This document shows, piece by piece, positions 1,211 through 4,457 of a stretch of 7,006 nt of DNA. Where the stretch lies: positions 1 through 7,006 of the forward strand of contig JAHDHM010000194.1 of the NCBI GenBank assembly GCA_020631315.1, given 5' to 3'. Each line of letters opens with the position of its first letter. Positions within the stretch are counted from its first letter, which is position 1. The stretch comes from Acidimicrobiales bacterium. Its GTDB lineage: Bacteria > Actinomycetota > Acidimicrobiia > Acidimicrobiales > Poriferisodaliceae. A program made the translations under genes and the position numbers. Under the pieces are notes generated by a model that searched no databases, was not told where the DNA came from, and saw only the letters and a program-made list of their open reading frames with translations.

Positions 1211-2173
1211 TCACCGGCGGAGCTCGGCGGTGATGTCGTCGAGCGAGCCGGGTGTGGGCACGCCGGTGGCATCGAGGAGCCGGTTCATCATCTCGAAGTT
1301 GCCGACCGCACCGGCCACGGCGCCGGTGGCCGAGTCGCCGATCGCTGCCCGAAGACTGGCTCGCGCGTCGTCGAGCTCGTCGGTACGGCGAACGAGCGCA
1401 CGGGTGAAGTCCAGCAACTCCGCGGCGCCGGGTGGACCGGGGGCGCGGGCGGGGTCGACGATCGACCCGAGATCGAGGGTGGTGGAGGAAGCGACGAGGC
1501 TCGCACGGAGCATCCCTGCATGCGCCGCCGTTCAATAGACGCAGTGGTTGAGCCACGAGGTCGTGGTGGCGGCGAGTTCCATCTGCCACCGGGGGATGTC
1601 CTTGACGATGGCCGGGTTGCCCATCTCGTCGTACCGCAGATACAGCGCGCCGTGGAGGTCGGCCTGGGCGGCTTCCTCGTCGGCGACTGCGGTGAGGGCC
1701 GTAATGGCGCCGGCAGCGCCGACCATGGGCACGTGGGCAGACCGACGTTTCGCCCCGGCGACCTCGAGCCGCGTGGGTTCGCCGGCGGCCGGATCAGGAA
1801 GGGTCAACGGCCGGCCGCCGACACCGGCGACGGTCGTGTCGACGGCGGCGAGCCTGGCAACGACGCCGACCAGTTCGGTGTAGGCGGTGGGCGACACGCC
1901 GGCGTGGTCGAGGGCGTCGACGTCGGTTCGCTCGATGTGGTGCGCGTCGGTTGCGACCCGTTGCGCCATCGAGGCGACCGCCTCGTCGAGCCCGTGATCC
2001 GGTGCGGGTGCATCGTCGATCGCGGCGCGAGCCACTGCGGCGATGTCGACTCGCTGCGATGCCGTCCACCAGGTGCCGGGGCGGCCGAGCCGGGTCCATT
2101 CGCGTTCGATCCCCGCACGCATTGCGGGCCGCAGTGGCACGACCGAATCCTCGATCGTGAACGTGTCCGTCAT
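1211..2173 (-). CDS. AhpD-like (carboxymuconolactone decarboxylase family) selenoprotein, TGA decoded as selenocysteine at codon 214
   Basis: Predicted thiol/selenol peroxidase or redox protein of the AhpD/CMD superfamily, 320 residues when the TGA at 1532-1534 is read as Sec. The active-site region reads E199-x11-C211-V-Y-U214-T-A-A-H218. This has the spacing of the known AhpD catalytic set (Glu118, Cys130, Cys133, His137 in the mycobacterial enzyme), with Sec replacing the second Cys. After the TGA the same frame stays open for 106 codons. Those codons give the helical second half typical of the family (LLDFTRALVRRTDELDDA, then GNFEMMNRLLDATGVP). The N-terminal ~100 residues look like an alkylhydroperoxidase-related, mostly helical half. 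The ATG at 2173 is preferred because a run of six G ends 3 nt upstream; a GTG at 2194 would add seven residues. A gene caller that treats TGA as stop would split this into a 213-aa protein and an orphan 100-aa ORF starting at 1513. AhpD-like selenoproteins are known in bacteria. A plain nonsense mutation is the alternative, but the exact position and the downstream hairpin argue against it. Confidence 0.88.
1498..1529 (-). promoter_or_regulatory. Candidate bacterial SECIS stem-loop
   Basis: Reading the transcript and counting from the first base after UGA, these pairs form. G3-G4-C5 pairs with G32-C33-C34. After an asymmetric GG/A internal loop, CGCAUG (8-13) pairs with CGUGCG (25-30) over six pairs, one of them U-G. 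A C/C mismatch follows, then AG (15-16) pairs with CU (22-23). The apical loop is GGAUG (17-21). The loop begins 16 nt after the UGA and starts with G. Both points match what is known of bacterial SECIS elements recognised by SelB, which have a G early in the apical loop at about this distance. The element lies inside the coding region, as bacterial SECIS do. A competing shorter hairpin (GCAU pairing with AUGC around loop GCAGGG) is possible. The fold was drawn by hand and no energy was calculated. Confidence 0.65.
1532..1534 (-). other. In-frame TGA, probable selenocysteine codon
   Basis: Codon 214 of the AhpD-like gene is TGA. It is the second redox residue of a C-x-x-[C/U]-x-x-x-H motif, a position where Sec for Cys exchange is typical. 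The six codons after it (ACG GCG GCG CAT GCA GGG) lead in frame into the downstream ATG at 1513, so no frameshift is involved. Confidence 0.85.
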
Positions 2174-2938: not shown

Positions 2939-3637
2939 TCAGCTCACGGTGCTGGGGCGGAGTTCGACCCGGCAGCCGGCGATCGCAGGATCGCGAGGTT
3001 CCAGCTGGGCTCGGAGTTCCTCGGACAGTGCGTCGAGGTGGCCGTCGAGCAGTCCGCGGTGCAGTTCGCAGACGACGCTCTGATTTCGTTGCGCGAGTTC
3101 GGCGAAGGGACAGTGTCCCAACTCGAGCATCGTGGGCGACATGCGGCGAGGTTCGAAACCGCTGATGCGAAGTTGCTGCTCGAGGTGGTCGGCGAGGTCC
3201 TCGTGTCCGAGTGCGTGTTCGGGAACCCGCACGCCGTCGCGGCCGGCGACCCGCCCGACGTCGTACGGCGATGCGGACGAGGTCGCGAGTTCGAGCAGGA
3301 GGCCGGCGAGCTGCTCGTACGAGCCGGAGAGTGCGGCGAACACGTTCATCGCGTCGTCGCGCAGCACGTACAGCTTCCGGGGTCGACCGCGCGTCGTCCG
3401 TCGTTCCGTGAATTCGGCGATGAGGCCGCTCTCGACCAGGACGTGCAGGTGTTGCCGGATGGCGTTGTGGTTGAAGCCGAGCAGTTCGGTGAGGTCGGCG
3501 ATCGGGACCGGGGCGTCGGACGTCCGAATGTGGTCGAAGATCTGGAAGCGGCTGGGGTCGCCGAGCGCTCGGGCCTGTTGCTGCAGCGGAGGAGCCTGAT
3601 CGCTGCCCATGTCGCCATCGTACCGATCGCCGGTCAT
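2939..3637 (-). CDS. SufR-like winged-helix transcriptional regulator with C-terminal Cys cluster
   Basis: A DNA-binding regulator of the ArsR/DeoR-like winged-helix type. Residues ~22-92 hold the helix-turn-helix, with recognition helix NHNAIRQHLHVLVESGL near 57-72 and a basic wing TTRGRPRKLY at 81-90. The C-terminal part has the arrangement seen in SufR-like Fe-S sensors: HCPF with C176, C190 thirteen residues later in VVCELHRGLLDGH, and C222 in AGCRVEL. SufR proteins use such cysteines to ligate a [4Fe-4S] cluster. Only three cysteines are visible here, so a fourth ligand would have to be another residue. I chose the ATG at 3637 (232 aa) because it shares its A with the stop of the globin gene (TGATG), which implies translational coupling; the ATG at 3610 (223 aa) is possible. 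The open frame up to 3880 runs through the globin gene and is not the start. The gene probably autoregulates its operon through the inverted repeat at 4457-4480. Confidence 0.85.
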   Translation of the reverse strand: MTGDRYDGDMGSDQAPPLQQQARALGDPSRFQIFDHIRTSDAPVPIADLTELLGFNHNAIRQHLHVLVESGLIAEFTERRTTRGRPRKLYVLRDDAMNVFAALSGSYEQLAGLLLELATSSASPYDVGRVAGRDGVRVPEHALGHEDLADHLEQQLRISGFEPRRMSPTMLELGHCPFAELAQRNQSVVCELHRGLLDGHLDALSEELRAQLEPRDPAIAGCRVELRPSTVS

Positions 3638-4041
3638 CACGATCCGAGGACGACCGGGTGCCGGCGGTGCAGCTGGGTCTCGTGGATCTTGGCCACCTGG
3701 TGCGCGAGCTCCTTGGCTCGTTCCGCCCGCGGCCCGGCCCAGGAGTCGTCGACGGTGTCCGCGAACAGCTGGAGCCACCGCACGAAGTGTTCGTGGGTGA
3801 ACGGTGACCGCCGGTGGATGGCTGCGTGTTTGGAGAACGGGTTGCCGGCGTAGCCGGGTTGGCCGAGCAGTTCCCGACACCAGAACTGAGTGAGGGTGGG
3901 GATGTGCCCGGACCAGTCGACGCGGGCTACCTCGTTGAACACGGGGCCGAGGAGATCATCCTGGGCCACGTCGGCGTAGAACCGACGGACCATGCGCTCG
4001 ATCTGTTCCGCGTCGTCGAGGTCCGGGCGATCCACCGTCAT
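3637..4041 (-). CDS. Group III truncated haemoglobin (trHb3/TrHbP)
   Basis: A 134-residue haem protein of the 2-over-2 globin fold, expected in the cytoplasm, where it binds O2 or NO. Key positions match the group III pattern known from Campylobacter Ctb: Tyr22 (B10) in RRFYADV, His46 (E7) in WSGHIP, and FW at 53-54. Further on come the P-x-Y-x-G-x-P stretch at 62-68, the proximal His76 (F8) in KHAAIHRRSPF, and Trp89 (G8) in HFVRWLQLF. The length is normal for the family. The ATG at 4041 overlaps the stop of the membrane-protein gene by four bases (ATGA), and its own stop overlaps the regulator start by one base. The three genes are therefore almost certainly one transcript. The exact role (NO detoxification, O2 delivery or redox sensing) is not settled for group III globins. 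The pairing with a putative Fe-S regulator makes NO or oxidative stress a reasonable inference. Confidence 0.92.
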   Translation of the reverse strand: MTVDRPDLDDAEQIERMVRRFYADVAQDDLLGPVFNEVARVDWSGHIPTLTQFWCRELLGQPGYAGNPFSKHAAIHRRSPFTHEHFVRWLQLFADTVDDSWAGPRAERAKELAHQVAKIHETQLHRRHPVVLGS

Positions 4042-4457
4042 GTCGACATCCGCAGCCCGAGGGTGAACAGCAACGCGGCCTTCACGAATTCGAGGACGGC
4101 GAAGATGGTGTGGAGGTGCGATGGCGGGGGTGGTGTTCCTGCGATGACGGCGGCGACCCGAACGTCGAGCAGCGGGAGCAGCCAGAACGCCTGCACCACG
4201 ACGATGCCGAGGGCGCCGGCGAGCAGGGCACCGTCGAGCGATTCCATCGGGGTGCTCGAACCGATGGAGCGGACCGCGGCGACGACAAGAACGGCGCTGA
4301 GCAGCCACTCGACCTTGGCGAACGCGTGGAAGGTGGCTCGGCCCACGTCCACGGCGACAGGAAGGGTGAGCGACTCGGCTCGGAACTTGATCGGTGCGGC
4401 GAGGAACGAGACACCGAGAATGAGACCGACCCAAAGGTGGGACACCGTTCGAATCAT
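4038..4457 (-). CDS. Small four-helix membrane protein, first gene of the globin operon
   Basis: I do not recognise this 139-residue protein with certainty. Four hydrophobic helices are predicted by eye at about 6-22, 46-64, 77-97 and 114-135. Polar residues in or next to the helices stand out: K24 and R26 after helix 1, H44, E50 at the start of helix 2, then H114, H116, E123 and K126 around helix 4. Such residues could bind a metal or haem or carry protons, but that is speculation. The ATG at 4457 gives MIRTVSHLW. Its first base belongs to the inverted-repeat operator and there is no Shine-Dalgarno. A GTG at 4445 would suit a leaderless transcript better, since a TATGAT lies 7 nt upstream, and would still keep helix 1. 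The gene overlaps the globin gene by 4 nt, so it is translated with it and probably acts in the same process at the membrane. Confidence 0.8.
   Translation of the reverse strand: MIRTVSHLWVGLILGVSFLAAPIKFRAESLTLPVAVDVGRATFHAFAKVEWLLSAVLVVAAVRSIGSSTPMESLDGALLAGALGIVVVQAFWLLPLLDVRVAAVIAGTPPPPSHLHTIFAVLEFVKAALLFTLGLRMST

Follow-up and report, generated by a model that had tools for sequence, protein, structure and literature searches.

The locus analyzed here lies in a 7,006-nucleotide stretch of Acidimicrobiales contig JAHDHM010000194.1 (assembly GCA_020631315.1; hereafter the window) and comprises two minus-strand open reading frames (ORFs), 1532-2173 and 1211-1513, which share one frame and are joined through a TGA (1532-1534) and six sense codons. 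Reading through both yields 320 residues (1214-2173), including the motif E199-x11-C211-V-Y-U214-x3-H218 with U (selenocysteine, Sec) at the TGA; the terminator of the gene is likewise a TGA (1211-1213). A first-pass annotation, made from the letters alone, had proposed this join and placed the TGA at the second position of C-x-x-U-x-x-x-H with a Glu 12 residues before the Cys, and both statements proved exact. The gene almost certainly encodes one selenoprotein of the NCBIfam family NF041238, with Sec at UGA codon 214 via a Sec insertion sequence (SECIS) and, by prediction, two fused AhpD-like lobes; the two annotated pieces are very probably one selenium-containing redox enzyme. Its features, all on the minus strand, are as follows.

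1211..2173, minus strand: whole gene; ATG at 2173, Sec TGA at 1532-1534, stop TGA at 1211-1213; 320 residues
1709..2173, minus strand: N-terminal lobe, residues 1-155; predicted AhpD-like fold, without CxxC
1214..1708, minus strand: C-terminal lobe, residues 156-320; AhpD core and active site; the TIGR01926 and CMD matches fall here
1577..1579, minus strand: Glu199 codon; the E of E-x11-C, a presumed proton-relay residue from the AhpD comparison; Glu in 52/52 aligned members
1541..1543, minus strand: Cys211 codon; Cys of C-x-x-U, presumably with a resolving role; kept in 52/52
1532..1534, minus strand: Sec214 TGA; TGA in 84/85 genes, TGC in one; Cys in 17/17 homologues of the TGC gene
1520..1522, minus strand: His218 codon; kept in 52/52 aligned members
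1499..1511, minus strand: SECIS core hairpin GCUC-CGUGC-GAGC; 20 bases past the TGA, loop from 24 bases past

The joined product matches the Pfam CMD domain (PF02627) at 22.9 bits, 0.1 below the gathering cut-off of 23 bits, and neither half matches (E 0.1). Comparison of the joined product with NCBIfam gave 213.1 bits for NF041238 (AhpD_rel_CFYUT; cut-off 175) over model positions 2-348 of 357. The query protein used in several searches (P0001) included the terminator TGA as an additional residue; without the terminator codon the score is 212.9 bits. Because the CMD match needs the joined product, and the joined product exceeds the NF041238 cut-off, the motif is more than chance. With TIGR01926 (peroxid_rel) the window protein reaches 55.3 bits, below the cut-off of 81.8.

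The family is already known, and the window gene is a new member of it, split by ordinary ORF calling. AhpD-like selenoproteins do exist in bacteria, as the first-pass annotation had stated: besides its entry as NF041238, the family appears in an excerpt of a 2026 review as 'AhpD-related protein (hypothetical protein 1, Sargasso Sea metagenome)', with CxxU and reference 59 (PMC13188914). Presumably this is the study of 2005 on the Sargasso Sea, in part of which hypothetical protein 1 is given as four sequences with a CxxU motif (PMC1088965). The earlier description of the gene as 'hidden' was therefore overstated. A full-text literature search for NF041238 returned PMC13188914 as its sole result and the model's name returned none; no experimental study of the family was met in the literature search.

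Protein searches scored only candidates sharing most words (7993, 7993, and 7997). With the joined product as query, 7993 scored candidates gave 18 homologues at E 0.001, 17 of which stop at C-x-Y, directly before the TGA position; the remaining one (P0014) is a product in a different frame. Not one of the 12 nearest records (P0002-P0013) covers the full length, as expected from the earlier claim that annotation splits the gene and loses the active site. Two ORFs in a mechanical listing, and databases that hold the first part alone, would also be compatible with the TGA being a real stop, the locus then being a pseudogene or encoding two separate proteins. However, the TGA persists across deep divergence. 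Three loci with 60, 63, and 45% identity to the window protein (L001, L002, and L003, respectively) carry it at the same place, and 395 genomes of the class to which G002, the host of L002, belongs were searched, with matches in 162, many of them to shorter AhpD-type proteins; the listed long hits were all taken. The 86 attempted loci gave 85 usable genes (window included); the motif contains TGA in 84 of them and TGC in the other, L058. L066 was dropped despite a motif with TGA (contig end, N-terminal part too short), L020 was left out as identical with the gene of L002, and L059 as a partial hit without the motif. The part downstream of the TGA is moreover conserved as protein, third codon positions differing most (30/24/53 and 30/21/49 differences at codon positions 1/2/3; 92 codons). 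Together with a hairpin after the TGA that is conserved beyond protein constraint (see below), this makes a genuine stop very improbable. A sequencing error that turned TGC or TGT into TGA would need a single-base change only, but 83 further genes, spread over more than 70 genomes, share this TGA, and we regard such an error as extremely improbable.

When the L058 protein was used as query, 17 proteins of 267-353 residues were retrieved (its own copy included), all with Cys at column 214. The comparison of this column suggested in the first-pass annotation was thus run on relatives and gave TGA (84 genes) or Cys (the TGC gene and 17 homologues). In alignment A4, which holds 52 of the 85 genes, E199, C211, column 214, and H218 are four of ten invariant columns, and all 52 members match NF041238 at E <=0.001. 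The G002 genome (L002/L020, L064, L109, and L112) contains three long TGA genes of the family and one shorter Cys gene (CLYC), which suggests paralogues with different roles. Shorter AhpD-like genes sharing E-x11-CxxU-x3-H were observed as well (L113-L117), two of them from 0.8-0.9 Mb genomes; downstream of their TGA stands CTTCGGTCGGAG or CTCCGGTCGGAG.

At a fixed distance past the TGA, the pattern GCUC-n-G-[UG]-nn-GAGC is exact in 75 of the 84 TGA genes, and CUCnGKnnGAG is found in 83; L058, which has TGC, shows no such pattern at this distance. RNAalifold applied to the 84 TGA genes selects the 4-bp hairpin, and loop position 2 is G in every one of them. The Leu codon at +8 is CTC in 84/84, a codon that serves 43% of the Leu residues in the rest of these genes, and residue +11, a Ser in 83, is encoded by AGC or AGT in 83/83, compared with 27% elsewhere. 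Judged from these codon choices, the hairpin codons are constrained beyond protein needs. The SECIS model given in an excerpt of PMC13188914 comprises a loop of 3-9 nt, an upper stem of 4 bp or more, G among the first two positions of the loop, and a UGA-loop spacing of 16-37 nt; the window hairpin agrees with it on all four points, with a 5-nt loop, a 4-bp stem, G at loop position 2, and a spacing of 24 nt. The 42 nt after the UGA have a minimum free energy of -21.1 kcal/mol (criterion <= -7.5), but the fold that reaches this value lacks the conserved hairpin. An Rfam search of the window, up to E 1, gave no match. Gene structure, conservation, and SECIS core are documented at the sequence level.

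The only TGA-N20-GCTCnGKnnGAGC of the window is at this TGA, which bears on the idea that TGA is reassigned or read as another amino acid, for instance Trp. The frame would be open whatever residue TGA encodes; yet the window gene, L001, and L002 all terminate in TGA, homologues carry Cys rather than Trp at column 214, and the hairpin pattern within the window trails this TGA only, leaving reassignment scarcely credible. The strict pattern was counted 3, 3, and 1 times in G001 (the host of L001), G002, and G250 (the host of L058), and its reversed form 0, 1, and 0 times. Among the seven strict matches, L122, L125, and L126 are genes already read (L002, L064, and L001, respectively), L128 is almost the same as L125, and three lie elsewhere, unexplained.

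Orthology of the window gene to L001 and L002 is indicated by gene order: genes for DUF1800, DUF1501, a 186-residue protein (2279-2839 in the window), and the selenoprotein follow in the same succession at both loci, with DUF1501 identities of 81-82% to the window. An antiporter gene is found further along in L002; the L001 contig ends before that point. Both host genomes contain SelB, SelA, and SelD over cut-off and a tRNA-Sec with anticodon UCA. The earlier proposal that Sec is inserted here thus draws support from the TGA/Cys pairing in relatives, the SECIS-type hairpin, and the machinery in the hosts of the two nearest orthologues, and from these we infer Sec insertion in the window organism. 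G250 still has SelA, SelB, and SelD, and loss of the Sec machinery therefore does not explain the Cys of L058. One in-frame TGA each was observed in the SelD genes L054, L056, and L057 (G207, G002, and G001), so that SelD is probably itself a selenoprotein there.

Several points weigh against Sec insertion at codon 214 or soften its support. The evidence for the machinery comes from the genomes of relatives, not from that of the window organism. SelB (E <=1e-60) is present in 66/74 genomes with a long TGA gene versus 193/321 others (odds ratio 5.5), an association that we treat as no more than supportive because SelB is common in the class (259/395 genomes at E 1e-60; 221/395 over the curated cut-off) and kinship is uncorrected. 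Eight of the 74 TGA genomes lack SelB at E 1e-60, and seven of these eight lack SelA over cut-off; tRNA-Sec was found in five of the eight, one of these being an Rfam-only match truncated where the contig ends. In the L003 genome, SelA and SelB exceed the cut-off and SelD does not; a tRNA-Sec match over cut-off in this genome was rejected, its sequence being a tRNA-Ser. The 85 genes were gathered by a pattern requiring the motif with TGA or Cys (none of the 86 loci failed for motif absence), and the codon-usage statistics count related genes as independent. Folded alone, the window RNA prefers another structure (z -1.22; 23/200 shuffles as good), and the SECIS stem hardly varies, so that its support comes from conservation rather than from compensating changes (covariation). 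Beyond the L003 genome, the tRNA-Sec matches L134 and L135 were rejected in the same manner as tRNA-Ser.

Structure prediction of the joined chain gave one compact chain (mean pLDDT, the predicted local distance difference test score, 96.4), and the predicted models follow the Sestrin-type plan of two fused AhpD-like lobes, with a predicted AhpD-like N-lobe without CxxC and a predicted AhpD-like C-lobe bearing Sec. AhpD sequences of the PDB match profile positions of about 160-311, that is, the C-lobe, and the best PDB sequence matches are AhpD or peroxidase-related proteins; no Sestrin is among the sequence matches. As excerpted, PMC11429811 describes the active site of the Sestrin C-lobe as replaced by an electronegative hinge (DDYDY), and PMC4674687 places the redox Cys of Sestrin2 in the N-lobe, the C-lobe being without any catalytic residues. 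In the predicted model of the window protein, the C-lobe instead keeps an intact C-x-x-U-x3-H helix, so that in comparison with human Sestrin2 (PDB 5T0N, 5DJ4) and these partial descriptions the lobe roles are reversed, the site with Sec lying in the C-lobe. For the bacteria Corynebacterium ureicelerivorans and Comamonas aquatica, a passage of PMC11429811 describes fused AhpD proteins whose N-lobe has no Cys; compared by that description, they share with the window protein the confinement of the pair (there Cys-Cys, here CxxU) to the C-terminal lobe, but have two Cys rather than Sec. The peroxidase-related AhpD proteins of TIGR01926 (PDB 2PRR, 6K40, 3C1L) differ from the window protein in its extra N-lobe and its Sec in place of the second Cys. 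With NF041238 it shares the full-length match over cut-off, CxxU, a site occupied by Sec or Cys, and a SECIS-like hairpin; it has Val at 212, where 46/52 members have Phe, and one of the shortest C-termini, with 106 residues after Sec (range 106-142, excluding L026, whose contig ends inside the gene).

In the AhpD motif, the second position is that of the attacking residue. For Mycobacterium tuberculosis AhpD (PDB 1GU9), part of PMC3141380 attributes peroxidase activity to Cys130 and Cys133 and proposes a relay of Glu118, Cys130, His132, Cys133, and His137. The window equivalents are Glu199, Cys211, Tyr213, Sec214, and His218, and Glu118, Cys130, Cys133, and His137 stand at the same spacing as their counterparts, in agreement with the E-x11-C-x2-C-x3-H motif that the first-pass annotation had quoted for AhpD. 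Glu, both Cys/Sec positions, and His of the relay are kept in 52/52 aligned members. We propose that the hairpin 20 bases past the UGA acts as SECIS and recruits SelB with Sec-tRNA-Sec, placing Sec at codon 214, and that the terminal UGA of the gene, without such a hairpin, would act as a stop. The N-lobe, lacking CxxC, may be structural or regulatory; the C-lobe would bear the Glu-Cys-Tyr-Sec-His relay, with Sec214 as the most likely attacker, oxidized by an organic hydroperoxide or by an oxidized partner protein. Sec at this position would speed attack on peroxide, and oxidized Sec214 might then form a selenylsulfide with Cys211, to be reduced by a thiol donor. Peroxide reduction as the enzymatic function, as well as peroxide substrate, reductant, and N-lobe role, we infer by comparison.

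The same selenoprotein could possibly perform other chemistry, its C-lobe being no peroxidase but a thiol-disulfide adaptor or an enzyme akin to reductive dehalogenases. We find this the less probable course, though one to be taken seriously: the top PDB matches are AhpD or peroxidase-related and the Glu/Cys/Tyr/His relay is kept, which does not by itself name the substrate. Retaining the peroxidase assignment, we tentatively suggest that NF041238 might be a Sec-dependent, mirror-image bacterial counterpart of Sestrins, whose C-lobe kept a selenium-based peroxidase site and whose N-lobe, without CxxC, became free for sensing or docking. No paper tying the two-lobe plan to a selenoprotein was found in the literature search.

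Next to the selenoprotein gene, the 186-residue protein (2279-2839) has no convincing Pfam or NCBIfam match. It is 55% identical in L001 and L002, where its gene also adjoins the selenoprotein gene, and is a possible functional partner of the selenoprotein. A further block (2939-4457) comprises genes for an ArsR-like helix-turn-helix protein, a bacterial-like globin, and a DUF4149 protein; this block has no match in L001 or L002, where DUF1501 adjoins the 186-residue protein.

Ordinary ORF calling cuts this gene in two, and the catalytic residue goes with the cut. Members are frequent in the class: at least 74 of the 395 sampled genomes contain a long TGA gene. What most deserves follow-up is the predicted Sestrin-like design of two lobes with Sec, which offers a concrete, testable idea of what the long N-terminal half may be.
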